Source: Gracilariopsis chorda (lineage: Eukaryota > Rhodophyta > Florideophyceae > Gracilariales > Gracilariaceae). From it: a stretch of DNA of 64,000 nucleotides. The translations under genes and the position numbers were made by a program. Location: positions 161,636-225,635 of the forward strand of contig NBIV01000135.1 of the NCBI GenBank assembly GCA_003194525.1. Direction: 5' to 3'. Below, one piece after another: positions 17,772 through 52,850 of this stretch. Every line of letters begins with the position of its first letter. The first letter of the stretch is position 1. A model generated the notes under the pieces. It was not told where the DNA came from. It made no database searches and was given only the letters and a program-made list of their open reading frames with translations.

Positions 17772-17933
17772 CTTGCTTTTCGTGTTCTACGTTTTCAAAA
17801 ATCCTAAAGCTTTGATCTGTGCTATCATCTAGATACACCGGCCACTTTCAACCGTCTCAGTCAAGATCGCGTCATGATAAAGAATCAAGGACAATCATTC
17901 GCATGCTATCAATGGAACCTTGAAATCGCAAAA

Positions 17934-19678: not shown

Positions 19679-19887
19679 GCTACTGTAGCAATTAAGTCAG
19701 GCCAAAATAAAATGGGACAAGTGTGACGCAAGTACCCTCTCCTGAAATCACAGTTTGTGCGTAGTATATCGCTCAATTTGGCGCCAAATCATCGTGGCGT
19801 TTGCGAACACCATTCTACTGCATGTTCCATGGGCTGTGGTGCTCAAGGATCTTTTACACACCATTTTTTATCAAGACTGAGGAACAG

Positions 19888-20397
19888 GTGGAAACTGCCT
19901 TCGGCCGTGGGCGGCGCTGCGCGCCGCGTCGTTTTTGTAGCTTTGTGTATTTAGTAGCGTTCGGAGGCTCTCCGAGCATTTTGCTCGCTTGCGCTCGCAA
20001 TAGCGCTCGTAGAACCACGGGGCGCCGCGGCGCCTAGAGTATTTGGAACCGTAGGGATTTGTGTTTGGGTGCTCAAATTGACAGCAAGGCCAGCCAATGA
20101 TGAGAAAGCGCAAAATGTTGCTTTTTCTAACTGGTTAGGACTGCAGTCATTATGGGAGTGCCACCAAGTAAGCAAAAACCTTTGCTGCTGCTGCTGCTGC
20201 TGAATGTTTTAAATCGTAGGGAGGGCTTGCGCCAAATGGCAGTTTTGCATGCGCTTAGAAGGGCATACAGGGCGGTTTATTGGGGCCAAGCCTCTATTCA
20301 GTCAATACCACCCCCTCATACGCGTAAAAATACTTATAGTAGAGAGAGAAGTAGAAGTGGCCTTCGGCCGCGGGCAGCGCTGCGCACCGCTGAATAA
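19888..20397. repeat. Inverted diverged copy of the palindrome-rich repeat
   Basis: Reading the minus strand gives the same modules as the array at 17934-19678: GAGGGGG, the CAG run (seen as CTG at about 20184-20202), the GACTGCAGT segment, the GGCGCCGCGGCGCC palindrome and GGCCGAAGG at both outer edges. The order is the same but several stretches are rearranged or lost, so this is an older copy. Confidence 0.8.
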
Positions 20398-20587
20398 GGG
20401 TGACTTTGGGGGATCTGCAGGCTGATTATGCTCGCTAACGCAGGCAAACGACCTGCAGACTCATGAGGGTCGCTGCGCCAAGAGTGAATATAGAATAGAG
20501 TAATAATTGAGCACCCATGCGATTTTGATTGGTGCACACTGCAGTTGTACATGTAGAGTACAGTGGAATGTAATTTTCCGGCACTGC

Positions 20588-20745
20588 CAAAATGATTGCA
20601 GTTACAACCACTGTGCAGTGGGATAGGTAGCAGTGTTGTAGTGCCAGCCATTGGCCGGCTTTGCAAAAATGATTGCAGTGCCAACCACTGCGCAGTGGGA
20701 TGGGTAGCACTGTTGTAGTGCCTGCCACTGAGCAGCAGTGGCAGT
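20588..20745. repeat. Two ~80-bp tandem units
   Basis: The segment AATGATTGCAGTTACAACCACTG (near 20589) with the following GCAGTGGGATAGGTAGCA recurs about 80 bp later in slightly changed form. It has the same TGCAGTGCCA-style words as the palindrome-rich repeats around it. Confidence 0.65.
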
Positions 20746-20770
20746 CAACATGCAGCAGCAGCCAATGAGC

Positions 20771-20965
20771 TCTGAGCTTTGCTGCTGCTGCTGATGCTGC
20801 TGCTTCTGCTGCTGCTGCTGCTGGTGAAATTTTTGAATGGCAGGGAGGCGTTGCGCCAAAAGAGGTTTATGCATGCGCTGAAGAGGGCGTGCGGGGGTGT
20901 TTATTGGCGCAACGCCTCCGTTCAATCAAGATATAGGTGCTCATGTGCTTGTAAATCTATATAAT
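20771..20965. repeat. Partial copy of the palindrome-rich repeat with long CTG/CTT run
   Basis: A (CTG)n tract with CTT and ATG interruptions runs from about 20777 to 20822. It is followed by the inverted pair GAGGCGTTGCGCCA and TGGCGCAACGCCTC that marks the family at 17.9-19.7 kb. The rest of the unit is missing. Confidence 0.75.
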
Positions 20966-25189: not shown

Positions 25190-26345
25190 TACTAATTCGC
25201 GCACAGTTCGGAAATCAGCTTTGTACGAAAATACGCGCCCAGACTAATGGCGGTCCCGATATTCCCTTTGGCGTCAATTCAAAGGTTTATCTGGTCCGAA
25301 CAGTCTGGTCCAAACCACCGATCGTGGTTCCTTGTTCGCTGCAATTGCGAGTTATACATCCATCCCATCACTCGAAGATGTTGCCTCACCCTGGCGCGAA
25401 GATGCTTTACACGACGCTTCGTCGGGATTTCTACTGGGCGTTATTAGCCATTTATTGTTACTCAATGGTGAAAAGTTGTACGCACTGTGCTCGCGAACGA
25501 GTTAAGTTTCGTCTCCATGCGAAGAAATTGACGTTATTTCCGGCAGGGGCTCCTTTGGAATTTGTGGATATCAATATTCTCGGTAGGTTCCCCCGGAAAT
25601 CCCATGGACATAAGTATTTGTTCTTAATCACTGATAGGTTCTCTAAATTATTCTGGACACTTCTGTTGAAGAAGATTACCGCTTGCAGTTTTGTGGAAGC
25701 TTTGTACGTCACTGGATCTTAGTATACGGCCCGCCGGTTAATCTCGTTTCGGATAATGGACCACAAGTTTTGGCTCTCTTGTTTCAAGACATTTGTCTAA
25801 TATTCGAGATGAAGAATTATTTTACAACAACCTATCACCCTCAATGTAATGGGCAGGTGGAACGGTTTAACCGTACTCTTTTATCAGCAATTCGTGCTTC
25901 TATGGTTGAACATCAAAAGACTTGGGATCTTTTGACGGATGCAATTACGTATGCGTATAATACGCAATTCCACAGAATTACTGGTTTATATCCATTTGAA
26001 CTTGTTCTCTGACGTTCACCAGCACCTGTGGCGGTCGAATCTCAACCTACGTTAAATAAGTTTCCGTCCACAACGGATCACTACACCCAAATAACGAATT
26101 GGCTAAGTACGATTGTTCCTTTCGCTAAGTGTTCGATGGCGAAGGCACAAAGCGCTTATAAGCGGAATTTCGATGCTCGGATCTGGCGGGCTCTTCCAAC
26201 CCTTCAGAAAAGACACTTGGCCTTCGTTTGCAAGGAATACTTTAATTCTGAGAACTACAAACTCCACAAATGTTCACACATCCGTCGGTGTTCTCGTTAT
26301 GCTAGTTTGGGATTCAAAAGGCAAAGAATTAAAATGAACGAATAA
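25190..26345 (+). pseudogene. Ty3-type retrotransposon integrase relic
   Basis: The track begins with the HHCC zinc-binding region (LYTTLRRDFYWALLAIYCYS, then KSCTHCARERVK), enters the DDE core (FVDINILGRFPRKSHGHKYL, LITDRFSKLFW), shifts frame near 25710, and continues with PPVNLVSDNGPQV, NYFTTTYHPQCNGQVERFNR and WDLLTDAITYAYNTQFHR. A TGA at about 26010 and further decay follow, ending in a piece with KEYFNSENYKLHK. Integrase inserts retrotransposon cDNA into the host genome. No LTR, RT or gag can be seen around it, and it is more AT-rich than the Ty3 copies at 42 and 60 kb, so it is an older, separate relic. Confidence 0.85.
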
Positions 26346-26407
26346 CGACTCTTCAAACCCATTTTTGAATGAATCCAATTTCTCAAAATAATTCCATACA
26401 TAGCACA

Positions 26408-26490
26408 GAGCTAGTTTGCTTGGGACAAAAGACTAGCAGTATACTAGAAATTTCCCATTTTCTTTGGAGGCAAAACTAGCGCCAGACTCC
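26408..26490. repeat. CTAG-motif cluster, proposed left end
   Basis: Four CTAG words in 70 bp: GAGCTAGTTTGC near 26409, GACTAGCAGTATACTAG at 26431-26447, and AAAACTAGCGCC at 26472-26483. The same longer words occur at the right edge (41.9-42.09 kb). Subterminal repeats of this kind are common transposase-binding sites. Confidence 0.45.
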
Positions 26491-26819
26491 AGTAATACCT
26501 ACCCTCTCAGGTGCACGTGGAATCCAAATCGTACTGGTCCTGAGCGCGTGCCCCTTCAAATAGCAAAATAGAATACATAGAATAAATAGAATAGATACAT
26601 AGCGGTTACATAACCAAATAGCTGACTTTCCATCACCCGTTGCCCGACCTGCTCCCTGAATCGCATGCTCTACCCCACGCCCTACGAAAAGACGCTCTGC
26701 ATCACGTGCACCACCTCATCTACGTGCATCATAATATTACGCTCCCTGATATCTCACTCCGCCACCACCCTCCCTTCTCTGTTTCCAAGCATCCCGTTCT
26801 CCGTTCTCCTTCCCCCGCC

Positions 26820-29800
26820 ATGATACCCTGTTGCCATCCCCGTTGCACCTTCTAGGGCCGCACCGCGTTCTCTCTCCAGAGTCACCTACGCAGGTGCCCT
26901 CATCGACTCACCCCCGACAAACGCTCTTCCTCCTCCGCCAACGCTCCCGTCCAGTTCCCTCTAAGGACCAAGCGACGAATATCCGTTCAAAACCTCTCCA
27001 CAATTCCTCCTCCCACTCCCTCACACTGCCCCTCCGACAACGTCCCCCTCGCCGAAGATGAACCCTATCACATCCGACAGGCCTCCCTTTCCCTCCAAAC
27101 ACAAGACGCACACCACATGGCAAGTCACGCCCTCTGTTCAGTCTCCTCCTCAAACCCACCTCCCCATACCTCGTCCCAATCCCCCTCCCTTCTCCTCAAC
27201 AACCCCCATCTCGAGCAACTCGTCCTCTGCATCTTCTGCATCGCTTCCTCCTTTAGCACACGCAAAGCCGACGAACTCATCTCCCTTCTCAACCACCCAG
27301 ACTTCTCCAAGTCATCCTTCCAGAAATCCATCTCCTCCGCAAAGCTGTGCCTTGCACTCCAAGAACACCTCCTCAAGGAATGCATCAGCTCCACCGGTTT
27401 CTTCCCTCTCACACTCACCGACGAGCACAACTCCTTCTCCGCAACCCTCTTCCAAAAACGCGCCACAGACGTCCTGAAGCAACAAATCGCTCTCGCACGC
27501 TTCAACAACACCTTCTTCCAACCCGTCTCCCAATCTTCCCCTTCCTCCTCTTCCGCCCCCCGCCTTCACCCATCCTATGGCCGCAGCCTTTGGAAACAAA
27601 GTCGTTCCTGCCTTCAAACAAGCCATCATGCAGTGATGACATCGTCTGGCACACCCCCGAAAAAACCGATATGGAATCTTTCGTCAGTCTCGTCCAGTTA
27701 TACTCCGATAAGTCCGCCACCTCACTCAAGAGCTCCTCCATCAACTCATATCCCCTTCACACCACCCTTCCCAACTTCTCAGACGCATTCTGCCGAAAGT
27801 GTATCTCCGAAACCCTCACCCTCCTCGGATACCTCCCAACCTCCTTCTCTCCCTCTTCCTCCCCAGACCACGCAGACTTCATCCCACATTCGTCTTCCAA
27901 CATCCCACGCGAAACAAGAATAGATCTCATTCAACGCGCCATCTCTGCAATTCTCAATCCACTCCTCTCTTCCGCCCTCCTCGGTTTCTCATTCCGTGAC
28001 ACCCACGGTGTACTCTGCCACTGCCGCCCCATCCTCTCCAGCTACTGCGCAGAAATCCCAGATGCAAAGGAAATCCTCGCAATCTTGCACGGAACACGAC
28101 CATAGCACCCCTGCCCTAGATGTACCGTCCCCTGCGAACACCTCTCCCTCAACACAAACCCCATCCACTTCCGCACACAATCCCAGACTCGAAACAAACG
28201 CAGGGAACACGCCGCTCTCCTTCGCCAGTCTGACGAAGCCCAGCTTGCCTGCAAGCCAAAAGTCGCTCGCACCAAAAAGGTACAAGCAACCAGAGCCCTC
28301 CAGTCCCTCTCCCTCGCAAAGTATCCCTCTCTCTTCGAAACTTACGCCATTTTCAACATCACTCCCCTTCTCTCCTCTTACAACATCTTCGCCTTCGAAC
28401 CCCTTCACAACTTCCACCTCGTCGTCTCAAAGCTCATCAAATCCAACGCCATCGAACGACTCCGCTCCGAATCACTCTTCACCGCAGTCGGCCCCAACAA
28501 CACCAAACGTTCCTTCCATCCCATCCGCACCTCAATCCTCAAACACTCCAAGTCTATCCTCGCCGCCATCGAAAAGGACTCCCCTGCACCCGGCCTCCAC
28601 ATCGACTTCTCCACAACCGACAACTCCCAAGCCCTCAACGGCTTCTTCACCACAGAAGGCTTACGAGGAATGCTGGAAGCAAAGGATTACCGCACCCTCG
28701 ACATGGTCATCCCCTTCATCGGCGCCTTCTTCGACATATGCTGCAAAGAAACCGACTCCTCCCCCATCACTTCTGTCTTCACCAAATACACAGACCTCCT
28801 TCTCTCCGCTATGCGATACAACTCGTTCCCCGAATGGACAGACACCTCCCTCCTATCTCTCGAAAAACACATCAGATCCTTCAAAGTCACAGCCGCATCC
28901 ATTCCCGGACCCTACCACTCCTCCCACATCGGCACCCTCAAGTTCCATCTCCTCTACCACATCGTCGAAGACATACGCCGATACACGGGTCTCCACTTCA
29001 ACGACGCAGGCATCTTCGAGCACGCCCACGTCCTCTTCAAATCACATTACTCTAAAACTTCCAAGCGAAAAGCCACCGCCCATACAGAAACCATCAGTGC
29101 TATAGACCGCTCCAATCTCTTCAAAGACTGGAATCCGCTTTCCGCACACCCTTCCCTATCCTCCCATGCTCGACCTCAAACTCAACCCTAACCACGCAAA
29201 CCCTCCTTCGTACGTGACGGAAAACATCTTTCCTTCTACGACATATTCACAGCCGCAAAGTACCTTGCATCCACCCCCAACGCAAGTCCAAAATTTCTTC
29301 AAGAAATCTTCTCCTCAGACACGCTCTCCATCATCTCATAACTAGGTCCCACCACACTTCATTCTTTCGTCTCCCTTTCCATCGAATATCTCAAGCTAAA
29401 TCCCTCACCCAACAACCTCCGTCAAACTCGTCTCACCTTCGTCAACTCCGCGTACGTCGTCGGCAGTTACATCCCAACACTACACAATTACAACCAAGAA
29501 CGAAACGAACTCGTCCTCCAAGAATCCTCCGTCCCTCTCCTCCAGCGCATCTTCGCCGTTCCATCATTCGGACCTTCCAGATCACCAAAGTTCTCCCATA
29601 TCCTTGTCGCAGGAAGCAACTTCTCCTCTCCATCCACACCAACTGTATGGGTCTCCAAGCTCATTGCCCTAGTTCGCTTCAAACTACCTTCCCCCTCTTC
29701 AAGCTCTTCCACCCCCATTACAAAGTTATTCGCTTTCGCATAATTCCTTGAACTCGTACCACCCCGTGACAATGTCGGATATCACCCTCAACTGCGTCTG

Positions 29801-30068
29801 CCTTCGGTGGTCAACCGATGACGAGCGGGACCATACCACCGATCCAGTTCTTATCTCCAAACCTTCCACCGACGACAACGTATCTCCTTGGTTCGGCCTC
29901 ATTCCTTCCACCTCCATTCTAGGTGCAGTCTACGTCATTCGAGGAAACTACCCCGCCCCGCCATTCACTCCTCGTCTTCACTGGCGCTTCCATCGTTTCT
30001 ACATCAACCGATTCTATCGTGACACCTCTTCAAAGCCTTACGCCCCACAATCTACAACACATCATTAA
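26820..30068 (+). pseudogene. Plavaka/KDZ-like DDE transposase relic
   Basis: The track starts with a C2HC zinc finger (MIPCCHPRCTF, stop, then SLQSHLRRC). The body continues in one frame to about 27620, changes frame, passes a TAG at 28103, and runs to 29189 with segments such as CPRCTVPCEH, YNIFAFEPLHNFHLVVSKLI, LHIDFSTTDNSQALNGFF and IGTLKFHLLYHIVEDIRRYTG followed by FEHAHVLFKSHYSKTSKRK. The last part (frame change near 29745) ends PWFGLIPSTSILGAVYVIRG and FYINRFYRD. The order zinc finger, PLHxFHL, DDE-like core, KxHxLxH-IxRxxG and E-H is that of Plavaka/KDZ-type transposases. Lesions include TAG near 26853 and 28103 and TAA at 29189 and 29339. Codons are very C-rich and G-poor. Tail to tail with the gene ending at 30090. 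Confidence 0.6.
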
Positions 30069-30089
30069 ACCACCCCTTCACCAGTAACA

Positions 30090-32525
30090 CTATTCTTCTT
30101 CAACTTGTTCTTCATATCCTCCCAGACCTTCCTCCCACTGCGCCTCGACATGATCCGTCGCCTCACCTCTTCCAACATCTCGACTCTCTTTCACCAACCT
30201 CTTCATCCACACATCTTCTGGCCGACACGCAGCAACGTAACAGTCCAGCACCCCTCCCAGCCGTTTCGTCATATGTTCCAAAAAGTATTCATCCTTCACG
30301 GCCAAGTATATCCTTTGCTTCGAAGGTATCTACAGCGCTACCATCACTTCTCTATCCCCATTGCCAGCTATACAACGCGGGTCACCCTCATCGCATACTT
30401 CATTCTCCAATTCTTCATGATGTAGCTCTCTCACCCTCTCCCAAGCCAGACCAAGTATATTCTCTACCGCGAGCAGAAGATACTCACCTTACAACGTAGA
30501 AAATAACAACTGCGGTCTTCCTCCACGCCCCACATCAGTGTCCATTGCCGTCAAAACACATGCAATCCACGAATCCAAACGAGCCAAATGCATCACTTTC
30601 CCATGAACGTACTCCATCTTTCCCTCCCTTTCCGTTCCCACCTCATATCCCATGAATTCTTCCAACAATTCCACCGCAGCCCCGTCCTTGAAGTACATGT
30701 CCCCTTCACTAAACTCTCTCAGCCGCCCAGGAACCTGAAATACAGAATACATAAGATCGTCGATTGTTTTCATCCTCCAAGAACATAACCTACCACTCCT
30801 CGCCTCCCCATCCCTCATGAACTTCGTCTTAACTTCCTCTAACTGCTTCTTCAACTCAATTTCTAGCTCCGTCCCCTCTCTATGTCTCATATGTCTGGCT
30901 ACCAAGTCATATCCAAGCAACAAAAACATTTTGTCCCGTGCTGCACGCTTCCCAACCCCAATCACATCACTCAACTTCTGCTTCATACGTTGCCTCAAAC
31001 ACCTGTCTGCAACAACCTCCCGCACGCATTGATCCTTCCTACCCGCTTCACGAATCGACTCCCATCTCTCCCCCTCAATCTCAACGCCAACCAATTACTT
31101 CAATAGTTCATTGCTTCCTCCTCGCGACGAAGGCGTGTACGACCTCATCTCAGACGCAATCTCAAACGGACATCGAGGTACAATCTCCTTTCCTCCAATA
31201 ACAAACACACTCCCCTCTTTTCCCTTCCCCAATACTTCGCATCGATTCGTCCAGTTCCTTTCCACACCCTCCGAAGTAAAACAAAGCTCCGATACCTTCA
31301 CCTTCGCAAAGTACAACAACCTATCATATACTACCCTGTCAAACCCATAAAAACCCTCTTGCACGTCAACCACATACTTCCTACGCCCTGGCAATTCCTT
31401 TTCACCTTCAGATCCCTTTCTCTCCCCTCGTCTCACCTTCATCCCTTCCCGTAAGCTATCTATCAGCGAATTCTTCTCGCTCATCTCTTCTCTCATCCTC
31501 TTCAGTTCCTCTTGTGTCAGCTTCAGCGACATCTTTAGGCTGCAGTGGTCCCCTTTGATCTGCACGAGTTCTGACTTCAACATATTAACCATCTCAACTA
31601 ACGAAGATCGAGATATCACACCGATGTCGTCATTCCCTGCATCTCCCAAAATATTGACAGGCAGCCGTCGCTCCTCAGCAGGCTCACTTGCGACCGATGA
31701 ACACTTCGTTTCCTCTCTCGCATTCCTTACGGAGTCCGCGGCGTTATGCTTCCTTTATCACTTTCTAATTCTTGAGCCATTTGCACCTTTCGCGCCCGTA
31801 CCGGGGTGCTCGTACGTTCTCCGCTTTTCGATGCTTCCTGTATTCCATCCGTCGCTCTGACCACTTCTTTCACTTCTCGCGTTTCCTTTAAATCAGAAAG
31901 GCGTCCCACTCCTTCCTTTATTCTCTCTCTCGTCCATCTCCCCTTCACAATGTGGTCCTCTTCGTCCCCATCACTCTCTACCAAAGGGATATTTACCTCT
32001 CCTCCATATTGATTTCTCCTTGGGGCCCCACCTCTCTTCAGCGCAACTGCCTCTTCCATTTCTTTCCTTTCCGGCATTTCTTCATCTTTATTTCGGTCTT
32101 TGACCCGCGCATTTGCTTTCAACCCTCCCTGATCTGGTACCTCTTCCCTTCTCCTAGCAACCGACCCTTTCTTACCTTCCACCCCACCACCAGACCCAGG
32201 CATCGATCGCTGTCCCCGAACCGAATCTCTCCTGCGTGCTACATGCGCATGGGCATCAGCCTTCAAATTCTCACTCGTCGTGAGCTCACTCGCCGTGCGC
32301 TAACTCGTCGTGCGCTTGGATCCGACTTTCTTTGCCCCACTCTTCGCCCTCTCTTCGAAGCACCTTCTCCTGACCTCCTCCCCGATAATCCGCTCCTGGG
32401 AACACATGATTCCGCTTTCGTTCCACTCGCAACTCGCACCTCAATAGCCTTTCGCCGCGTCTTAAGCGCACTCGCCGCACCACCCTTGCCGGGCCTCGCT
32501 TCTTTCCCTTCGGCGCCATTCTTGG
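30090..32525 (-). pseudogene. Basic coiled-coil protein of the large element
   Basis: The coding track reads from about 32525 down to 30090, with a frameshift near 32270-32300, another near 31740, a TAA at about 31095 and a further shift near 30480. The N-terminus (APKGKK..., ARRVSARRVSSRRVR) is strongly basic. The middle is charged and disordered. A coiled coil follows (SSLVEMVNMLKSELVQIKGD, LKLTQEELKRMREEMSEKN). The C-terminal half holds KQKLSDVIGVGKRAARDKMF, LEEVKTKFMRD and a conserved-looking globular stretch, ending with LVKESRDVGRGEATDHVEAQ. I do not recognise the family. A DNA- or chromatin-binding accessory protein partnering the transposase is an inference from its basic N-terminus and its tail-to-tail position, the same layout as the pair at 21.4-23 kb. 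Confidence 0.45.
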
Positions 32526-32865
32526 AGTCAAACCTCTTGCGCAAGTGGCTAGTGACGCTCTGGGATGGCGCACGCCATGTGTTGTCCCGGAAAATCTCGC
32601 CACCCAATGCGCACAAAAATCTTTGTTGTTTGTGAAATCTTGAGAATACAATCCTCCGTGGTACCGAAAATGGACGTTTCTGTATCACATCTATATTGCT
32701 TTGTATCTTCTATGCTTACTGAAAAGTGATGTTCTCCTAAGTTAGGACTACACATCCGTTCAAAAAATAAAAGTCGCCCTTTAGCCAAGCTGTGGACAAA
32801 GGTTTATAACAACAAACTAATCAATAAATATCGTTCCATCCTCCACATTAAAATGGGTTTTCCAG

Positions 32866-33620
32866 TCATAAACGTGACCTTATCGCGAAGAGTTCCTCTC
32901 CTTGCTCTATGTTGGCTGTATCCTCCATCTTAATAAGTTTGTAGTGCGTTATTCCCCCTGGTGTTCGTCCCACTCCCAGTGTCCGTGTCAATCGCACATT
33001 AGCCTCCCTTTTTTTCACGAGGCCATCCACAATAGCATCTAACTGTTTATCCCCTTCCACGTACTTTGGATCGTTGATATACCCCGCAATACAAAAAGGC
33101 GAAGGAACCACCCATAAAATGGGTTTGCTTGTTTTCCATGCCAATTCGTCAGCTGTTTTCGATGCGGAGGTGGTTGGAACTGTTGACCGTAGACTTCTAT
33201 CTCCACCGCATACTTCCGGAAGCGATCCTTCGTCACACCCATGACTCCTCCCCGTAGGCCTTGTGCACTTCATTCCGACTCGAAAGGTCATGATAAATCA
33301 ACGTCCCGTAGAAATAGCACACTACCTTGCCTGCAGCAATTCGACGAGTTGCAAACACTCCAACACCAGCCTTTTCGTGACGAATAGTAGACTTGCCCAC
33401 TCGCAACCCATATTGCACAGCCTCCATTGCCAATAGAGACTTCATGTTCTCCAGATTCAATCTTCCCTGCAGCTCCCTCGGCCATCCATCCATAGCTTTC
33501 TTCCTTCCCAACTTCCCTAGAATTTCACTTTGCCACAAAGTGGAGAGAAATTCGACAAGGTGTGGGGGAAGAATTTGGTACGGTGGAAATCGTCGACAGC
33601 CTCCATAACACGGTGTGCCT
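32866..33620 (-). pseudogene. SET-domain (lysine methyltransferase-like) segment
   Basis: The segment begins with QSEILGKLGRKK and reaches the SET opening RHEKAGVGVFATRRIAAG (the GxGVFA motif, 33343-33371), then VVCYFYGTLIYHDL. A frameshift near 33235 leads to TKDRFRKYAVEIEVYG, and another near 33190 leads to SPFCIAGYINDPKYV (33057-33083), EANVRL and NIEQGEELFAIRSRL at the end. Known SET domains share the GxG(V/I)FA start, an (I)N(D/H)..NV core that binds S-adenosylmethionine, and a closing GEEL(F/T); all are present. The usual product methylates lysines on histones. No pre-SET Cys cluster is seen. It follows the DNA methyltransferase with no clear stop between them, so the two may be one protein. 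Confidence 0.6.
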
Positions 33621-33639
33621 GCTTCTTCCCATTGGGAAT

Positions 33640-35969
33640 GCAGAGGAAACACAATGGGCCATCTTTCGAAGCTCCTGGCTCTTCTCAATATCCGTATGTC
33701 CTTCCCGTATTATGGAAGCGAAGCGAACAATAGCGGCGATGCCTGGCGTGTTCAAAGCAAGCTTTGTCCGGTTCACACCCCACAAACTTCCGATGCTTGG
33801 GCAGTTCCATGCACGCCATCGCTGTCGAGAACGTTCCGGCAAACATGTCGACCACGACGTCTCCTGGCTGACTAAAGCTGCAAATCAGCTCTTTCAACAG
33901 TGCCCTACACTTCTGTTCCGGTCGCACCCTCTTCCTCGTATACTTCCCATCCGGTTTTTCACAGACCACATGAGCATCTCACTATTTGACATCGGCGGCA
34001 CCTGATCCATGATTGCATGATACGCTGGGTATCGTGAAGCAACATAATTGAAGTTCTCATAGTTGACCATCCGGTGCTGTTGTGCATAAGGAACTCCAAA
34101 ACGAACAGCATGTACAGCGTATTCTGTCGTCTGGTGCAACCGGCAACTTCTTCTCCCAACGTTACCCGTCGTATTACCTAAAGACCGTACGAAATGTAGG
34201 GGCTGTTCGTCGACGACAAAGGAGTAACACATCGTATCAGAGTCATCCATGTAGGTAACTTTCCGTAGGACATCCCGCCACAAACGGTACCTGATCCCAT
34301 GAGCAGAACTGTGTAGTATGTCCACCAGGACGTAGAAGCTTTGAACGACCTCCTCGCTGACCTGCTCATGCTGTTCTCTGTCAGAATATCGTGTTTAGCT
34401 GTTCTCCAAACGACGCTCAGAACGAGTCCCATATGGAGGATCGGAAAGCAGGAACTGTACCCTTCCTTCAATAGATACCTCGCTTTCGACACACTTGTTG
34501 TCGTCAACTTCGATGAGATTTTCGGACTTGCACTTGTGGAGACGGAAGTTGCGGGACATCTCCTTCTCAAAATACTTGTAAGCTATCACATCATACAAAG
34601 TCGTAGGGTACGGTGAGTGCACGAATCCCCGTGCCTTTGACATCATACGATAAGTTTTGCGACAAAGCTGTTGTCTGCAGTCCTTCAGTGGCCTTTGGTG
34701 CAGTACCACGTTCTGCAGTACCACGTTCGGCATCCTCTACCATCTCTATCTCTTCCACTTCTTCCAACTCACCCAGATCAACACCTTCCACACGCTCAGC
34801 ACGTCCGCTCCCACCACCAGCCGTACCAGTTTCTACCGGCTCCATAATGATATCAATGTCTTCTGCGGGCTCTGGTTTCACAGGTTGATGTACTTTCACA
34901 TTGCTTCCATGCATTGCAATGAGCTCCAGAGGCTTTATGGCCTCTTGAACCGTAGTGAAAAGAGTTTCACTAAAGTTCTCAAAACGCAGAGGGAAAAGTC
35001 TCGTTCTCGTGATGATGAACCTTTTGAGGGCATCCCATTTGCTGGGAGCAGAGATGTCGAACAGTTTCTCTTGGACCACCACATTAGAAACCTCACCAAG
35101 GTATTCTTTGGCACAAAGGCGAAGCGCTGTATCCACTGGGTCCAGCAGATTCCATGCCCATTTTGGTATCGTTTTCCTCTACGGTGGTGACGTTCTTCTC
35201 CTCCACAAAACTGTTTGGAACAATCTTTGTGTTGGAAGCCCATGGAGCGTTGTGCGATATCGGTGAAGACTACACTGATATAGTCTGAGTCGAATGTAAG
35301 GCAAGATCATAACCTCAACGTTGGGAAACCCGAAGAATTGGGAGAAACAATCCCAAGCCCTGGACACCAGCTGCACATCATACCCGACTCTCTGACTCTG
35401 GGTTTGTCCGACAAACTCACTTTCGAGAACTTCTTAGCTGCCATGCCCCTTTTTCCTCTTCCTACCACTTCCTTTCTTATCCACGGCATTCTGTTGCACC
35501 ATAGACAACCCAATGACTATTTCGAGTCGGTGCAAGGATCCGTGTGGAAAGCGGAATATTTCTTGGTTGCTTCCAGAAAACTGGACTTGCAAAAGATAGA
35601 TAGCAACACGTTACGGGGAATTCCTTTAAGCCCTTCCCTTTTACAATAAACCTTCCAAAAGTCCCTTACACGCCTGTCTTTTTCACGGTCCTTTACGTCC
35701 ACCACTCATTGCCATAAGATAGAGTTGACGTGGAGGCCTCTGAGAGACATGTTACGGAGCTCGGAGTCCGAATACGAGATGTAATCCGGTCCGATGAGAG
35801 TGAGAAACATTTTCTTGGCAGAGTCATGAACGTTGCGACTTTGTACCGCGAACTCCACAAAGTCGGTGTGCTTCAAACTTCTCAGCTCATCCAAATTTTG
35901 CCTCGTCGCTGCGTAGTCATCACGAACTGCAAGATAAGCATCAATAAGCTCTTCTCCAGTTCCGTGCAT
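33640..35969 (-). pseudogene. DNA methyltransferase (DPPY, beta-type motif order), large-element gene
   Basis: The track starts at a Met near 35969, passes a TGA at 35706 and frameshifts near 35500 and 35150, then an acidic linker (EDIDIIMEPVE, LEEVEEIEMVEDAE). After another shift near 34620 comes motif IV in QFLLSDPPYGTRSE (DPPY at 34431-34442), a TAA near 34396, then YVLVDILHSSAHGIRYRLWR and a shift near 33965 to KRVRPEQKCRALLKELI and motif I, GDVVVDMFAGTFSTAMACME (about 33820-33860). DPPY marks amino-methyltransferases acting on adenine N6 (sometimes cytosine N4). Motif IV before motif I is the circularly permuted beta order. It continues towards a SET domain. Such enzymes are bacterial or phage in type; in eukaryotes they are rare imports. 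Confidence 0.65.
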
Positions 35970-36014
35970 CTTGAATGAACCAGTTTCCTTCTGATTATGT
36001 TTCTCTTCGTTTTG

Positions 36015-36162
36015 GGTCGAGGACCGTGGTCCGAGGTGTCATGGTGCTCCATCGCGAACACGAGGGAGCGCCAGGCATGAATTTTAATTAAAATTTCGCG
36101 TCCTGGCGCTCCATCGTGTTCGCGATGGAGCACCATGACACCTCGGACCATAGACCTCGACC
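36015..36162. repeat. 148-bp near-perfect palindrome
   Basis: Left arm from 36015 (GGTCGAGG) and right arm ending 36162 (CCTCGACC) pair over about 72 bp each. The centre, TTTTAATTAAAA, lies near 36087. Mismatches are limited to about four bases near the outer part, one in the middle and a few near the centre. It sits close to the point where strand composition flips, between the minus-strand methyltransferase gene and the plus-strand ParB-like gene. It could be an origin-like cruciform, a shared promoter operator, or two inverted terminal sequences joined head to head. Confidence 0.85.
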
Positions 36163-36308
36163 AAAAATTATCAAATTCTTTTTTGCAATGCAAGTAATTG
36201 GGAGGGGAATTGCAGGGATGCTACGTTGACGACAATGGATGTCATGAAACGTCTTGAAAATGATACATAGTGCTTACGTCCATGCTCTTTGGAACCAAGC
36301 ATATGTGA

Positions 36309-36640
36309 TCACGGGAAGCATTCGACGTCAGTGGGTGCCAAGAAAACGCAAGCGCGACCTTTGAAGTACTCAGCCATGGATTCCACTGGGAAGAAGATAA
36401 ACGCGCCATCACGGAAACGGACTCCGACGAAGCCTGTTTCGCCGGAGAGACGTGTTATCCACATGCCGACAACGCGAGGCAAAGCGAAGAGCTGGGGCGC
36501 CACCCGAACTGCCAGCCACTCTGAGTGATCAATTGGGGGCAATACGGCTCAGGTGCTTAAGGGCGATGCGGAGGTCAATCTGTTCGTACGAGTTGGGAGT
36601 GTTGATGCAAACGTGAAGGTAGGAGAGGCAAAATTGCGCG
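36309..36640 (-). pseudogene. Coding remnant of unknown family
   Basis: On the minus strand a frame with AQFCLSYLHVCINTPNSYEQ and IDLRIALKHLSRIAP shifts by one near 36537 and continues WLAVRVAPQLFALPRVVGMW, ITRLSGETGFVGVRFRDG and AFIFFPVESMAEYFKGRAC before a stop at 36309. The sequence is globular in character, not low-complexity, so I think it was coding, but I do not recognise it. It lies between the palindrome and the ParB-like gene and runs opposite to the latter. Confidence 0.35.
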
Positions 36641-36794
36641 GTGCGGGGGTTGCTGGGGGGCCGGGGACGAGACTCTGTCGTTCTCTACACAAACATACCC
36701 TGTCCCCCTGTCCACAAACATACCCTGTCCTCTACGCAGAGACCTGGAGAGGACTTGGTGGTTATCTCTAAGGCAAATACTTCGTCACGCCAAG

Positions 36795-38324
36795 ATGAGA
36801 AAGTACCCTTATGTTTTTGGGGGTCCCGACGAACCGCCCGCAACTTTGAAGGAGATGGTTTCAGCGGGTTTATATGCACTGGACACTGCGATGATGAGTG
36901 TCAAAAATGAAGGCGAAGAGGGGATTGAGTCGGTTCCACCGCAGTCAGGAGCAAATGTGAATACTGTCCACAGAAGTACAGCTTCCAGGACCACTGCAAG
37001 ACAAGTCAAGCGCCTTCCCGCTGTTGCTGGTACACCATCAAGCTTTTTTGTGACCAAAGCGCCTGTGAACAGCCTTCAGAGCGGTGGAGAGGCTCCGGTG
37101 AAAACCCGTCGGAGCGGTGGAGGAACATTAGGTGCTCTCGCGGGCGGCTCTGGAAACCGAGGAGGCCCTGAAGTCGGAGCAAGCTCCCATGATGACGTCA
37201 TAGAGGTGGCTGTACTCTCCAGGAACGATCTTGATCCGGAGGAGAGGGTTTTATATGATGACGGAGATGCTGTTCCTTCGGAAGAGGTGGATAACAGTTT
37301 TAGGGTCTTAGACATCAATCGAGATGATTATGACCAGCACAATTGCGTAATCGATACCCACAACATTCGATTTCCGAAGAACATGGTTCGTTCGAGGAAT
37401 GACAAACATCTTCGGGATACTTCGAACAAAATGAGGAAATTCGGATGGCTCCCTTCTCTTGGGTCGATTGCGGTGGCCCTGTTGGAGGATGTGCCGGTTC
37501 GTGACGCTATTGATGCGAGTGGGCGTTTGATTGTTCCTGTGGTTTTGGTGGACGGCTTCCGTCGAGTGAGTGTTCTACTGGACCTCGAGCTGGATGGTGC
37601 GAGATGGGCACGGATTACTGCTGGTTTGAACGTCACGCTTTGGGAACGGAACGACGGCCGGAGAATGACATTGAATGAGGTGTTGTGGCTGGGGAATACG
37701 TTGAATGATTTGAGCTCCAATGTTCTGGTGATGTCCTTCGCAGATAAGATTCACACTGCTGTTTCGTTTATTCGTAATGGCGTAGAGCAGGATGGGTATG
37801 AGTTGTCGAAGCTTAAACCAAGCCAAATCACGGGGGTGTTGTGGAGCAGTGAGACGAAGGGGAAAGAAGGGAAGATACGTCATTTCAATCGCCATTCTGC
37901 TCTTGCTCTGAAGTTTGCTCGTAATCCCGGTCTGTTAGAGTTCTTCGATGTGGTGTGGCAGGAGACGCCTCAAAGTGGAATCACTCATATGTCTAGTGAT
38001 ATTCTGCTTGGAATGTCAGGGATAAGTTTCGTTTTACTATCCAATGTCTACAGGCGCATGTTTCGAGTGAGGTCGGCGGCCACTGTGAAGACGGGGCCGT
38101 TTGAGGATTTCCGAAAGTACTTCTTCGACTGCACTTCTAAAACGTATGACATTTGCAGTGAGCTGGGGAGTTCCCTGAAGGAGAAAAAGCATGCACAGGA
38201 AGTGATGAATACCACAGTTTACCATCGGCGATTCTGCCCGGACTGTGTCAAAGTATATCATATCTCGTCTGGGGAAGTGGTATATGAAAGGGAAACGCAG
38301 TTCACTGGAGTCCAGAGTGAGTAA
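36795..38324 (+). CDS. ParB-like domain protein of the large element
   Basis: An uninterrupted frame of 509 codons. Residues 1-165 are low-complexity (Gly/Ser/Arg/Glu). The core (about 185-290) reads like a ParB/Srx N-terminal fold: DTHNIRFPKNMVRSRNDKHL, then LRDTSNKMRKFGWLPSLGSI, then LIVPVVLVDGFRRVSVLLDL. ParB proteins share the order 'NP-R', a helix 'L..SI...G', and a basic 'G-(E/x)-R-R' loop that binds and hydrolyses CTP; VDGFRR would be that loop. The rest (290-509) is mostly helical with a possible zinc pair (FCPDCVKVYH) near the end. Coding continues past the stop in other frames towards the dioxygenase, so the original protein may have been longer. In bacteria and phages ParB-like domains often accompany DNA methyltransferases, as here. 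This family assignment is tentative. Confidence 0.5.
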   Translation: MRKYPYVFGGPDEPPATLKEMVSAGLYALDTAMMSVKNEGEEGIESVPPQSGANVNTVHRSTASRTTARQVKRLPAVAGTPSSFFVTKAPVNSLQSGGEAPVKTRRSGGGTLGALAGGSGNRGGPEVGASSHDDVIEVAVLSRNDLDPEERVLYDDGDAVPSEEVDNSFRVLDINRDDYDQHNCVIDTHNIRFPKNMVRSRNDKHLRDTSNKMRKFGWLPSLGSIAVALLEDVPVRDAIDASGRLIVPVVLVDGFRRVSVLLDLELDGARWARITAGLNVTLWERNDGRRMTLNEVLWLGNTLNDLSSNVLVMSFADKIHTAVSFIRNGVEQDGYELSKLKPSQITGVLWSSETKGKEGKIRHFNRHSALALKFARNPGLLEFFDVVWQETPQSGITHMSSDILLGMSGISFVLLSNVYRRMFRVRSAATVKTGPFEDFRKYFFDCTSKTYDICSELGSSLKEKKHAQEVMNTTVYHRRFCPDCVKVYHISSGEVVYERETQFTGVQSE

Positions 38325-40314
38325 TAAGGTGAAAGAGGTTCGTAGGACGTTGTCCAGCGCTTTGTCGGACATGCAGGGACAGGAGGCTACTGCTGCTGCT
38401 CCCTCTGCGGCCGATGTGGACGTGATCGAGTTGCTTGGTCTGAGGAAGCTGCTCAGGAGCCTCCAAACCCTGACCAGGAGCCTCGAAGAAGTAAGCAAGT
38501 ATCAAGGAAGCGTAAAGTGGAGGTCCTGGACGAAGATGAAGATGAAGAGTCAGTTGATTTTGAGCCACCGGTGAAGAGGCAGAGACGATCGAATCGTAAG
38601 CCGACTGCACCTGGTGTGAAGCGACCTGGCTTTGGTATTCTCGCAGGAGGGTGGTGGATTGGCTGCGTATTATGGAAAGGAGAGATTTGAAGAGGTGGTT
38701 GACAGCACAAGAGATCATTGTGCTCGAGTCAAGCGAGGATGAAGCTCAGGAGGACTTTGTGGATGATGAGGAAGACGAGGCAGAGGAGCAGCAAACCGCA
38801 GGCAGCTTTGACGATAAGAATCCTGACAAGCTTCCAGCTGGCTTAATTACGCCAGGAGAGCTGGCTATGGAGCGGACATGTCTTGGGTGGACCTGGTATA
38901 CTCGTTGCCGAGTGAGTGGCCTGCAAACGGAAATGCAGTGAAGTATTCCCATCCATGGATGCAGAGGATAAAACTGAGGAAGCACCATCGGGCGGAGAGT
39001 GCCTATCACCTGATGACTTCCAAATGGTTCATCATGCTGTGTACTGGCGTGCGTCTCGCAACATGCACAAAGAGATGGGTACTACGACACGTGCAGTGCT
39101 GGGCGTGAAGATGCCGTCATCAGGAACGGCATCAAATGAAGAGGAAGAGTTATGGATGGCTGCTTTTGAGAGAGAGGACTCGGCTCGTGTTTACTTTGGG
39201 AAGAAGAGAGTGGAGCTGTCGGAGAGTGGGTTTTGTGTGCTGGAGAATTTTGGGACAGATGAAGGCATGGCGAGTGAGGCTTCGACGAGGGGACTGCAAA
39301 TGGACGAAGATGTGATAGGAGAACTGATGGAATTCTTCGAACGCGACTTTGTTTCGCAACCGGATCTCACGAACGAAGCGAATCGTGTTTTCTGGAATAT
39401 GATCATCAATGGAGGAGGGGTTAAGGATGTTAAGAATGGTATCAAGGCGGTGAAGCGTTTCATCACAACCAAACGAGGGATTGAAGACAGAATTGAGGAG
39501 CTTGAAAACGGTGCGGTTCTTGCTCGAACGAGAGCCATGTTGGATGCAAAGCTCGGTCAGATTGCAGCGGATCTCGGGTTGTCTGAAGGTGGAACGATGT
39601 ATGCCCCTCACGCGGGTGGCCGTATCCTTTGTACTGGAGGGTATTGTCCGAGGCAGGTGCTACACACGGATTTCAGGGTTTTGACGGAGAATGACAGGAT
39701 GAGAAATGTGAACCCGGGGTATTTTGAAATGGCATCGGCACCGGATGCGTTCATGATTTTGGGTTTGTGAACGGTCACATACTCTGACAATGACACGGGG
39801 TAACTTGAAAGAAGCTTTCGGCTTCTATGATGGTTCAGAAGTTCAGAATTCCACCATTTTCTGTGTTCATTGGAAGATAGGATGTATTTCATGCTGGGCC
39901 TGGCTACATTGATGCAATAGCGAAAGGCTATTGCATGCGATACATTATGTACTTTGTACCTGAGGGATACAATCTCCCGGATGCGGTGCATAGGCAAAGC
40001 GGTTTCCGCCCTCCCTTTTTTAATTATGAAGAGGACCGTGGCGATTTATGTGAGGTGGAGGAGGGGAAGAGGAGCGGGGAGATGAAGCTGACGATAGAGA
40101 TGTAGTTATGCAAGAAGCCGAAGGTGAGAACCCGTCGGATGAGGAGGACGATGAGGATATACTGAAACCAGCGGAAATGAACACTGATGGAGATTATGAA
40201 CAGGAGGATGACGATGAGGGTGAAATCGTTCCTAAAGTAGCAGAGGGTATGATAGGTGAGGACGATGAAAAGCGATTGATAATGATAAGTAAACTAGTGA
40301 TATACGTTTGTTAA
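38325..40314 (+). pseudogene. 2-oxoglutarate/Fe(II) dioxygenase of the large element
   Basis: The track continues from the ParB-like frame through several frameshifts. First comes a Lys/Arg-rich and acidic linker (SKQVSRKRKVEVLDEDEDEE, PPVKRQRRSNRK) that looks like a nuclear-localisation region, then an acidic stretch at 38.7 kb. From 38916 to 39770 one frame runs with FERDFVSQPDLTNEANRVFW and ends in GRILCTGGYCPRQVLHTDF, with H-T-D (39663-39671) as the iron-binding His-x-Asp. After frame changes near 39.77-39.83 kb and a TAG at 39878 come the second His in VFHAGPGYIDAIAKG (39890) and the Arg in MRYIMYFVPEGYNLPD (39938). H-x-D..H..R is the full 2OG-oxygenase signature. An acidic tail ends the track. 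The substrate could be modified DNA bases or histones. Confidence 0.6.
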
Positions 40315-41090
40315 ATCTGATGATTGCTTTTTTGATCTTTATAGTGAAATGTTTATAGTGAATGGGAGAGGTTTACTACGATGGGGATTACTTTTTATGC
40401 GGCTTCATTCGAATGATGGGTAATAATGAAGGGATGATGTCTACAAAGATTTCGCTTTGTTATATTCAATAAAGAAAGTTCTGCAAGTATGAGAAGAAAC
40501 TTGGGATGGGTGTATTGGAGGGGAGAATGAAGGGGCAGCTCTTATGACACACGAATGGATGTAAAATTGAGTATGGGATTATGTATGAGAATTGAAGGTG
40601 ATTGTACGGATGTGAAGGATCCCGTTGTTATAGCCAAATACCGCGATTGTCCATTCTGTTGATATAGAAAGTACTGGTTCTTTTCATACATGAATGCATT
40701 GTGGCGTGCTTGATGTATGAAGAAGAGTGAAGAGGGTGAAAGCATTATCGTGTAGAGGTTCCAAATATTGTTTTGTGTTTTGGGAAGGACAAGGGGTGAG
40801 CAAATGAGAATATGATAAACTGTGCATTTAAGCAGTGACGAAGTTGGTTCAAGTGAAGAGGTGGGACATTCATTATCGATTTTTGAAAATTCATTCACGA
40901 CTCTTGAACATTCATTCACGACTCTTGAAGATTCATGTCATTTGAGAACATCCACACGCACCATGACTACTATTTGCAATTTTCGGTCAGTGAGCTTGGG
41001 GTTGGGACGATGATGGGAGGGGATGGTGGGGAGGGAGGTGCGGGCGAGGGTGGTCGAGGAGGAGGGGTAGGGGGAAGTTGAGGGAGACGA
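40315..41090. other. G-rich spacer in the large element, no gene seen
   Basis: This is AT-rich in the first half and increasingly G-rich towards 41 kb. It holds a short direct repeat, ATTCATTCACGACTCTTGAA, near 40890-40930. No convincing coding frame was found. Confidence 0.4.
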
Positions 41091-41622
41091 ATGGATGGGT
41101 TCTACCACGATGTGAAGGAACTATTGAGGAGCGCTGGGGGAGGGCTTAAGGAGCGTTTGGATGAGTGTATTGAGGAGGTTGTCGTGGAGTTGGAAGGGAT
41201 GGTTCTGAGTGCGTCGGAGGAAGGAGTGCGGATGGGCGCTGTGGCTGAGTTTGCGCCGGAGGGTGAGGGAGGCTGGAGTGTGGGCAGAGCAGCACGTCGA
41301 TGGGGTTGTGGCGTGTGTGGGAGAGGATCTGGGGAGGCTGTGGAAGGAGAATGAGGAGTTGCGAGGACGGATTTTGGAGCTGGAAAAGCGACTTTTACTG
41401 GTGGACAGGGCTGTGCATCTAGTCGAGGATATGCAGAACAAGATGTATGGAGGTGGAGGGGAAGGGGGGGTCGGAGGTGCTGTCGGGAGTGGGTCTCCGG
41501 TTACTCCTGGAGGTAGAGGGGGCGCGAAAAGGAGGTTGGAGGAGAATGAAGAAGAAGGATTGGAGATTAAGAGTCAGTTTAAGAGGAGGCATGGAAAGAG
41601 GGAAGAGGGAGAAGAAGGCTAG
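41091..41622 (+). pseudogene. Leucine-zipper-like small protein of the large element
   Basis: One frame starts MDGFYHDVKELLRSAGGG with helical LDECIEEVVVELEGMVLSAS. A frameshift near 41270-41290 joins it to a second frame with EDLGRLWKENEELRGRILEL and EKRLLLVDRAVHLVEDMQNK, a heptad pattern typical of a coiled coil. The end is Gly-rich and then basic (AKRRLEENEEEG, FKRRHGKREEGEEG). The basic end and zipper suggest a dimeric nucleic-acid or chromatin-binding accessory protein. No family was recognised. The coding strand is very rich in G. Confidence 0.4.
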
Positions 41623-41824
41623 TGATGTTTAGGAGTGTCGTTGAGGCTGTTAGGACGACGGAATGGGTGGTATTGGAATCTGATGCGCGGTGTGTCGGGT
41701 GTGTGAGAACAAAGAGAGCTACCCAGATGAGTTCCTGAGGACGAGTTGGAAGTCAAACTAGGGCAGTATGAAGTTTGAAATTCAAAAGATGGAAATAAAA
41801 ATGTTAGTGTTGGTTGGGTGCTCG

Positions 41825-41859
41825 AAATGGCGCTGGCCGCTGCGTGGCCAGCGCCATTT
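41825..41859. repeat. Perfect 14-bp hairpin near the right end
   Basis: Arms AAATGGCGCTGGCC (41825-41838) and GGCCAGCGCCATTT (41846-41859) flank a 7-nt loop. It lies just inside the cluster of CTAG motifs at the proposed right end of the large element. Confidence 0.8.
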
Positions 41860-41871
41860 TGAGATCTGTAT

Positions 41872-42090
41872 CTAGCTTTTAGTGGAGAATGAACTTGCTC
41901 CAAACTTGAAACTAGCGATGCGCAGTGCAGGTGAGGCAAGGCTCTGTAAGATATGGAAGTGTGAATTCCAAAAAAAAATTCTTTTTACTTGGGAAGCGCC
42001 AGAAACTAGCAGAATCTATCATTTTCGTAGTAATTTTTTGAGCTTTTGCCTAAGAAACTTGCGATCTAGCGCCTCTATCTAGCATTCCAA
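41872..42090. repeat. CTAG-motif cluster, proposed right end
   Basis: Five CTAG words: TATCTAGC near 41870, GAAACTAGCGATG at 41908-41920, AGAAACTAGCAG at 42001-42012, GATCTAGCGCC at 42064-42074 and TATCTAGCATT at 42077-42087. The longer forms repeat words found at 26.41-26.49 kb. Directly after, at about 42095, Ty3 integrase sequence begins. Confidence 0.45.
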
Positions 42091-42095
42091 GAACA

Positions 42096-42907
42096 CCGAC
42101 GATGTCTATTTGGACCGACGAACCAAAGAAAAACACAAGGCTGAGCACATTGCGGCCAAGTTGATACCTCGTTCCACCGGACCATAAAGCGTAATCAAGT
42201 CCACTGGCCATATGGTTACGATAGAACGAGACGGCCTTCAGGATATTGTGTCGACAAACCGCGTGTCCATGGTGCCTCCCCCGTCAGTCAGACCAATGCA
42301 ACACCCTACCGGAAGTGCGAGCGTACTGCAGGCCTTTGCGTGTACATCCCCACATATACTGACGCCGCCACCTCCCGCCCCGCGCTCATGAAGCACTCCA
42401 GTGGTCGACGCGGCCCGCTCAAGGCTGCCATTACCATCTGAACCGACGACCTCGGCAGCACCGCCGGAGACACGCGCCACTATCGCCTACCCTCTTCGCC
42501 TGAAGGTCAATATAGCGGTTCAACAGGGTGCCGTTGCCGAAGATTCGGCGCAACATGCCGCGGTGCGAGGGATAGACCATGGAGAACGCGGTTGCAAAAC
42601 CGTCCCGTCAGACAACGGCTATGGAGCCTTCTATGACATGTATTTACCAGAAGAGGACCACCACGAATATGTCGTAGACCACATCGTCTCCACTGGCATT
42701 GACCAAAAAGGTGAGGTGCTCTACAAAGTTCGCTGTTATGGCTATGGCCTGGACGAGGACCAGTGGATACCGCCTGAAAATATCCCGGCGAATTTTGTTA
42801 ATCGCTATTGGACCAAAATGGGCTACACGGAGAGCGATCTCCGAAAAGGGTTTATCACTGATCACACATTCACTGCCAAGGAGCCCCGAAACGCCGCTGG
42901 CCAATAG
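42096..42907 (+). pseudogene. Integrase C-terminus plus chromodomain
   Basis: The frame reads VYLDRRTKEKHKAEHIAAKL, then GP-stop-SVIKSTGHMVTIERDG and VSTNRVSMVPPP, which is the GPY/F module of Ty3 integrases with a TAA in place of the aromatic residue. After a TGA at about 42391 the same frame continues to a chromodomain at about 42657-42795 (HHEYVVDHIVSTGIDQKGEV, CYGYGLDEDQWIPPENI), with the aromatic W and Y/F positions that bind methyl-lysine. Chromodomains direct integration of chromoviruses into marked chromatin. A hydrophilic linker of about 90 residues separates the two modules. Confidence 0.8.
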
Positions 42908-52822: not shown

Positions 52823-52850
52823 ATGTTTTATTTGCAACCGTTGTCACATT

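Follow-up and report, generated by a model that had tools for sequence, protein, structure and literature searches.

A large Plavaka-type DNA transposon in a probable red alga encodes a methyltransferase-SET fusion and a ParB-like fusion with a putative oxygenase domain

We analyzed a 64,000-nucleotide stretch of genomic DNA (referred to here as the window) and found that positions 26,283 to 42,101 (15,819 bp) constitute a single transposable element and not a chance nest of several. We are highly confident that this element is a large Plavaka-type DNA transposon with two epigenetic fusion proteins whose genes diverge from a central palindrome (i.e., a DNA methyltransferase joined to a SET domain and a ParB-like domain joined to a putative 2-oxoglutarate [2OG]-dependent oxygenase domain). 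A first-pass annotation of the window had proposed one eukaryotic DNA element pairing a transposase with DNA- and histone-modifying enzymes at 26,400 to 42,095. The common ends and gene order of the copies described below bear out the single element and place its ends slightly farther out. All of the coding tracks listed in that annotation lie in the element, although the methyltransferase and SET tracks belong to one protein and the ParB and 2OG tracks to another. The copy in the window is decayed, is collinear with 10 further copies, and also lacks a membrane-protein gene that occurs in some of the others.

The copies were sought in the host assembly (91.3 Mb in 1,081 contigs; C numbers denote its contigs, and L numbers denote loci extracted from it). 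DNA probes from 34.0, 28.2, and 38.9 kb of the window yielded 118, 124, and 84 candidates, and the best 40 scored for each probe were 93 to 100%, 81 to 100%, and 86 to 100% identical, respectively. Ten further copies (C1, C7, C199, C63, C230, C46, C150, C22, C39, and C10) were picked for having transposase and 2OG matches in the same order. All 10 align with the window from ~26,280 to ~42,100 at 92 to 95% identity, apart from internal indels of up to 1.5 kb. Indels longer than 60 bases occur in nine of them (C63 and C46 are ~1.5 kb longer and C10 is 1.2 kb shorter; in C1, a paired 279-base entry probably reflects an alignment artifact). Across the 11 copies, pairwise identity is 92.0 to 94.9% and the pattern is star-like. 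The flanks of the further copies resemble neither those of the window copy nor one another, dispersed repeats aside (e.g., the left flank of C199 is 82% like window positions 53.7 to 54.5 kb, and that of C150 is 82.5% like 42.6 to 43.2 kb). Two additional contigs, C589 and C400, carry elements 99 to 100% identical to that of the window over two probes. Since C589 also shares the right flank at 100%, it probably represents a second assembly of the window insertion; it is included in the genome match counts and is not among the 10 further copies.

The element is bounded by 23-nucleotide terminal inverted repeats (26283 to 26305, + strand; 42079 to 42101, - strand) that are complementary at 20 of 23 positions, and its outermost sequence is 5'-CGTCGGTGTTCTCG...CGAGAACACCGACG-3'. 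When the 11 copies were scanned for target duplications (lengths of 2 to 9, offsets of 0 to 5 on each side), one offset setting gave an exact 2-bp duplication in nine copies, while the second-best setting gave only six and reflects a CG pair belonging to the terminal repeat. The window copy is one of the two inexact cases; its left target-site copy is AT with one extra C (26280 to 26282), and its right copy is AT (42102 to 42103). Gene order was counted over all of the best 40 transposase matches and over 104 of 106 methyltransferase, 68 of 112 ParB, and 51 of 111 2OG rows, with distant families and second fragments left out. A methyltransferase match lay at the expected place and on the expected strand for 32 of the 40 transposase matches and was missing there for the other 8. 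At least 23 of the 104 methyltransferase matches have the transposase, ParB, and 2OG all in place, a lower bound because the transposase matches comprise the best 40 and because of the rows left out. The self-alignment proposed in the first-pass annotation thus recovered long copies with the same gene order and ends, not single modules. The deletion derivatives and the eight transposase matches without a methyltransferase do exist, yet they do not make the element a nest.

Because no extracted copy of the window's family has any of the three large enzyme genes intact, we read each gene from whichever copy keeps a given stretch open and mended no frame. The transposase gene (26603 to 30065, + strand; ~1,150 codons, broken in the window copy) matched the Plavaka profile PF18759 in Pfam, both in the window frame at 27257 to 28105 (E value, 7.6e-13) and in a 955-amino-acid (aa) open frame of copy C7 (1.1e-17). 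The motifs CPRC, HLLYH, and IFEHAH were read by eye in C7 (i.e., the CxxC and H(3-4)H signatures that precede the final catalytic E in Plavaka; the catalytic D residues were not pinned down). As regards KDZ transposases, the transposase scans matched Plavaka only. By these sequence features, the transposase belongs to Plavaka.

The methyltransferase-SET gene (32866 to 35990, - strand) is broken in the window copy and open in sibling copies. Its product consists of an N-terminal region, a beta-class, N6-adenine-type DNA methyltransferase with a DPPY motif (~33.7 to 34.6 kb), and a C-terminal SET domain (~32.9 to 33.4 kb). The window frames matched the Pfam profile N6_N4_Mtase (1.1e-12) and, weakly, SET (0.019; 15.8 bits, below the cutoff of 22.4). 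In the sibling locus L045, where 976 residues are open in the extracted piece, both profiles matched (N6_N4_Mtase, 3.2e-18; SET [PF00856], 7.5e-5, 23.5 bits, above the cutoff). The PF00856 cutoff was exceeded by five of the seven homologs scanned; P0002 fell just below it (20.5 bits), and P0026 gave no match. Between the window family and the sibling, the ratio of nonsynonymous to synonymous substitution rates (dN/dS) is ~0.2 in both domains, a rough value because dS is 1.0 to 1.5 and therefore near saturation; it indicates that purifying selection acts on the methyltransferase and SET domains alike. The beta-class assignment is based on the order of the motifs (DPPY before an FxG-type motif), the N6_N4_Mtase profile, and the matching fold in the predicted structure. 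The closest fold is that of CcrM, a cell-cycle enzyme. The fold and the DPPY-then-FxG order are shared with the N6-adenine methyltransferases CcrM and M1.HpyAVI, whereas the present enzyme is flanked within its fusion protein by a long N-terminal region and, C-terminally, by a SET domain and resides in a eukaryotic transposon. The SET fold was not among the best 50 VIA rows for the first structure model, which says nothing about its presence. Public sequence data hold 26 relatives of the protein. One public contig of 20,528 bases appears to carry P0003 together with P0028, a relative of the second fusion protein. A search for a prokaryotic methyltransferase-SET fusion matched 66 loci, all in the methyltransferase part alone.

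Between the two divergent fusion genes lies a palindrome (36010 to 36167; 66-nucleotide arms, 92% complementary, with a 26-nucleotide spacer). Its core is central in 10 of the 11 copies, occurs more than once in at least four (C199, C230, C150, and C39), and is missing from C10 because of a deletion. A perfect palindrome with 43-nucleotide arms occupies the same place in the sibling locus L155, and the two resemble each other (score of 43; 500 shuffles that retained the palindromic form scored no higher than 23). One candidate role for the palindrome is that of a loading site for the ParB-like protein (i.e., parS-like), made attractive by the gene next door; a shared two-way promoter is equally possible.

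The second fusion gene (36271 to 40276, + strand; broken in the window copy, with a longest open stretch among the 11 copies of 1,062 aa, in C1) encodes a ParB-like domain, a helical domain, an acidic linker, and a C-terminal domain with an HxD...H...R motif. The predicted structure displays a ParB N-domain fold followed by a helical domain of the DNA-binding type, so that the model suggests a ParB-like fold in this protein. The likeness extends to the N-terminal fold and the following helical domain of the ParB, Noc, and KorB clamps. The present protein differs from these in its fusion to an oxygenase-like domain and in its DGxHR motif, where classical ParB has a GERR-type motif; its CTPase activity is putative. 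The signature of 2OG-Fe(II) dioxygenases is an HxD...H metal triad with a downstream R or K. In the C-terminal domain, the distal H and an R 16 residues later are invariant, HxD is present in five of seven family members, and the context is conserved (GRGD..H...RYH); across the 11 genomic copies, the three parts of the HxD...H...R motif occur in 8, 10, and 10. On the basis of this motif, we regard the domain as a probable oxygenase.

Smaller genes complete the element. A coiled-coil-rich protein with no Pfam match is encoded at 30183 to 32803 on the - strand (870 aa open in C39, broken in the window copy), and a small open reading frame (ORF) at 40929 to 41619 on the + strand encodes a coiled-coil-like product of 228 to 230 aa in C10, C199, and C39 (best Pfam match, DivIVA; 0.0089, 16.4 bits against a cutoff of 28). 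At 40992 to 40993, 2 of the 11 copies (C46 and C63) hold an extra ~1.5 kb, and the site is empty in the window copy. The additional sequence, situated between the ParB-2OG gene and the small gene, encodes a ~400-aa membrane protein with about six hydrophobic stretches. Relatives of this protein are found just beyond ParB-2OG in the sibling family (e.g., C204, C550, and C31) and in distant families (e.g., C131, C190, C370, C435, C179, and C28). In those distant families, the membrane-protein gene is reversed so that it faces ParB-2OG, and the ParB and 2OG halves are 25 to 27% and 44 to 46% identical, respectively.

The same genome harbors a younger sibling group with the same gene order at a dS of ~1. 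The methyltransferase protein gave 106 rows against the host genome (the best 104 of 278 candidates scored), and 28 of the scored places showed 69 to 71% protein identity, 26 of them stop-free within the match. Sibling methyltransferase-SET genes form an open frame of 1,065 codons at four places, sibling ParB-2OG is uninterrupted over 1,417 codons at both C550 and C204, and a sibling transposase lies at the matching place in C53, C48, C27, and C31. Two extracted sibling pieces share 99.8% identity over 487 bases, and more than 30 places have a membrane-protein gene with 98 to 100% identity. These open frames and near-identical sequences suggest that the sibling elements were recently active. 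Locus L155 is a deletion derivative that retains the methyltransferase end, the palindrome, and the first part of the ParB gene, followed by the membrane-protein gene. A cargo swap in its right arm was rejected as an account, since the membrane-protein gene lies beyond 2OG in longer copies as well. In the high-copy, near-identical siblings (i.e., L155 and those on C27, C32, C64, C12, C144, C187, C232, C281, and others), the methyltransferase frame is shortened, mostly to 593 to 650 codons, and the membrane-protein gene is close by.

The element also displays a gradient in strand composition. On the + strand, GC skew at fourfold sites runs from left to right through -0.83 (transposase), -0.65, -0.25, -0.04, +0.32, +0.49, and +0.62, independently of gene direction and with a zero crossing near the central palindrome. 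The membrane-protein gene on the right side has values of +0.69 and +0.72, and the methyltransferase has similar values in the sibling (-0.29) and in the window family (-0.25). Mutations that followed insertion are near strand-symmetric in every part (the largest gap between C>T and G>A is 0.151 versus 0.111 per site, in the ParB part), so the gradient probably did not form during chromosomal residence of the copies; it could be explained, for instance, by a mobile stage that is strand-asymmetric. A simple replication account is countered by the AT skew, which has no matching trend, and by the noncoding left end, where the GC skew is only -0.09. Skew alone proves little, because a DNA photolyase exon in the window (5807 to 7252; 1.5e-42; likely a host gene) has a fourfold skew of -0.55 on its coding strand.

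Phycobilisome linkers and light-harvesting genes together point to red algae. The host genome gave 15 match rows for the light-harvesting family PF00504 and 7 for the phycobilisome linker family PF00427. Contamination is unlikely, because four of the seven linker matches are on contigs that also bear methyltransferase matches of the element group (C12, C60, C144, and C153). The host is thus probably a red alga, and the fungal setting implied by the first-pass annotation was rejected on these matches. For the 5-methylcytosine (5mC) methyltransferase family PF00145, no match was found in the host genome, which contains dozens of copies of the element; the control matched in 10 of 14 genomes, and absence from the host is likely. 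MT-A70 likewise had no match in the host, a result that is uninformative because the control had none in any genome. Elsewhere in the window, we observed a probable Helitron at 52507 to 56849 (a weak Helitron_like_N match [0.004, below the cutoff], followed by a PIF1-like helicase frame [2.9e-36]); a retroelement with Ty3-type integrase and RNase H frames at 61225 to 63661; and, at 17890 to 20931, a cluster of 300-nucleotide direct repeats ~435 bases apart with CAG runs and long inverted repeats.

Transposons with epigenetic cargo are already known, as the consulted parts of two reports describe: TET/JBP genes in fungal DNA transposons including Plavaka, SET domains in oomycete Harbinger and MuDR elements, and DNA methyltransferases (DNMTs) in retrotransposons (PMC12730594; PMC5890265). 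The Plavaka transposons of mushrooms that carry TET/JBP genes resemble the present element in their Plavaka-type transposase, 2-bp target duplications, and dioxygenase-like cargo gene, and their termini are given as TGT..ACA (PlavakaA) or CATCA..TGATG (PlavakaB) (Kojima 2025, PMC12730594). The termini found here (CGTCGGTGT..ACACCGACG) fit neither pattern and fall outside those two groups as described there; the Plavaka assignment stands nonetheless because PF18759, the CxxC/H(3-4)H motifs, and the 2-bp duplications agree. The present element further differs from the mushroom elements, as reported, in its probable red algal host and its added methyltransferase-SET and ParB fusions, and the kinship of its dioxygenase-like domain to TET/JBP is only a candidate one. 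The word ParB does not occur in the text of PMC12730594. Like our element, the HarbingerS and MuDR transposons of oomycetes (as cited in PMC12730594) are DNA transposons encoding a SET domain, but their transposases are different and, in what is cited, a fusion of the domain to a DNA methyltransferase is not mentioned. The DNMT-bearing retrotransposons of dinoflagellates and charophytes are also mobile elements with a DNA methyltransferase, possibly self-methylating; according to the portions consulted, they use host-derived cytosine-C5 enzymes, whereas the element described here is a DNA transposon whose amino-methyltransferase is of the bacterial type and beta class and is accompanied by a SET domain (PMC5890265). 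The giant repeats of Amoebidium share very long, Plavaka-flanked units and intron-poor genes, and gene matches in red algae were noted for them; many of their cargo genes are tyrosine recombinases, and a methyltransferase-SET protein is not named in the part consulted (PMC11244446). In the literature covered (i.e., titles, the starts of abstracts, and passages, with most subscription journals outside the search), no transposon with a methyltransferase-SET or a ParB-dioxygenase fusion was found. The new part is the presence of the two fusions in one Plavaka element.

How the parts may work together can be outlined as follows. The transposase would move the unit via its inverted repeats, and the likeness of the siblings suggests that it still does. 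The methyltransferase would add N6-methyl groups to adenines of the element, and the SET domain of the same protein would methylate nearby histones, so that both marks are laid jointly, like N6-methyladenine (6mA) and H3K4me3 elsewhere in eukaryotes. These two marks coincide in many unicellular eukaryotes (PMC12695648, in the part consulted), which would make the fusion of an adenine writer and a histone writer a direct way to claim permissive chromatin. In the same source, as far as consulted, robust 6mA is tied to AMT1, an MT-A70 enzyme and not one of the beta class; "red alga," "rhodophyt," and four red algal genus names are absent from its text. The ParB-like half may load at the palindrome, spread along the element, and bring the C-terminal oxygenase, which may remove or change a methyl mark on DNA or protein. 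As a net outcome, the element would stay expressible rather than silenced. We consider the anatomy together with the adenine and histone methylation rather probable, regard a benefit of such self-marking to the element as evenly balanced, and propose ParB-guided erasure only tentatively. The complete scheme (i.e., a self-addressed epigenetic system in a 5mC-less lineage, with a one-protein writer of DNA and histone marks and a palindrome-loaded, spreading ParB clamp carrying an oxygenase eraser) is likewise a somewhat doubtful proposal. The first-pass annotation had suggested that the element writes and erases its own marks to escape silencing. The write half is backed by the domains, the intact frames, and purifying selection, while we infer the erase half and the anti-silencing purpose. 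As for its domain assignments, Plavaka and N6_N4_Mtase matched their profiles and SET exceeded its cutoff in L045, while ParB and 2OG had no Pfam match on the window's own frames; the predicted structure supports ParB, and the conserved motif speaks for 2OG. The link to TET/JBP was not supported as stated: no dioxygenase family matched in Pfam, and the TET/JBP profile had no match in the window piece, P0001, P0028 to P0032, or the C1 protein, although distant kinship is possible.

Several observations weigh against self-marking or parts of it. The proposal is built on sequence and predicted structure, and the methylation, expression, and activity of the element are putative. The methylated base cannot be read from the sequence, because N4-cytosine enzymes share the fold, and neither can the SET substrate. 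The C-terminal SET columns are missing from two relatives, P0026 and P0027, and the four SET motif patterns are satisfied by just 17 to 23 of the 27 rows. The Foldseek E values for ParB are weak (0.018 and 0.052; none below 0.001). The 2OG part matched no dioxygenase in Pfam, NCBIfam, PHROGs, or PDB sequences, and in the model its motif-bearing segment (residues 842 to 1062) has a predicted local distance difference test score below 50, too poor for a structure search. ParB-2OG appears not to be needed in cis, because the high-copy derivative L155 has lost most of it. In a host where a 5mC enzyme was not detected, there may be no silencing by 5mC for the element to counter. This last point, the retention of the methyltransferase end in L155, and the closeness of the fold to CcrM would also suit the same element serving another purpose, with adenine methylation timing transposition, limiting copy number, or compacting the element to hide it; the control of IS10 by Dam is a precedent for such timing. 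We hold this purpose to be unlikely, as similar selection acts on the fused SET domain, which would be superfluous for a pure timing role, even though the choice between the purposes is a matter of inference for both.

The remaining alternatives concern the nature of the element and of its second fusion. The C-terminal domain might not be an oxygenase, with HxD...H...R arising by coincidence, as the missing profile and structure matches and the variant metal sites (HTA in P0001 and QTD in C1) would allow; given the invariant H and R, the HxD in most members, and their conserved context, we find this quite unlikely. The ParB fold, the membrane protein, and a skew gradient that arose despite near strand-symmetric later mutations could instead indicate a virus- or plasmid-like element, whose ParB would partition an excised form, whose membrane protein and methyltransferase would serve an extrachromosomal stage, and whose Plavaka enzyme would act as an integrase. 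We judge this very unlikely. No capsid, DNA polymerase, or packaging family exceeded its cutoff in the scanned ORFs (a phage capsid model reached 12.4 bits against 24.1 and was taken as chance), no match to the methyltransferase-SET protein was obtained in viral_contigs, where its alignment found 43 loci by the methyltransferase part alone, and the host photolyase exon is strongly skewed too. Finally, a chance nest of separate mobile elements might be suspected from the surroundings: a retroelement integrase piece immediately to the left (Integrase_H2C2, 1.6e-8), a weak chromodomain immediately to the right (Chromo, 1.9e-4, below its cutoff), and the deletion derivatives. Both flanks of the insertion are repeats, and an empty site was not found, each of the best 40 joined-flank matches spanning one half only. 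The collinear copies with common ends, the exact duplications, the gene-order counts, and the same order in a sibling family at such divergence led us to reject the nest, which is exceedingly improbable.

The element described here is thus a DNA transposon in which a bacterial-type methyltransferase and a SET domain occur in a single polypeptide that appears to be under selection. The element also encodes a ParB fusion, and a search of its host genome revealed no 5mC methyltransferase. Should the element be active, it becomes testable whether one enzyme lays DNA and histone marks together and whether mobile elements can found a new DNA methylation system in a eukaryote. If the self-addressed system is true, DNA methylation in this host could come mainly or solely from the transposon, and ParB-type spreading would be a eukaryotic way of marking exactly one DNA unit.

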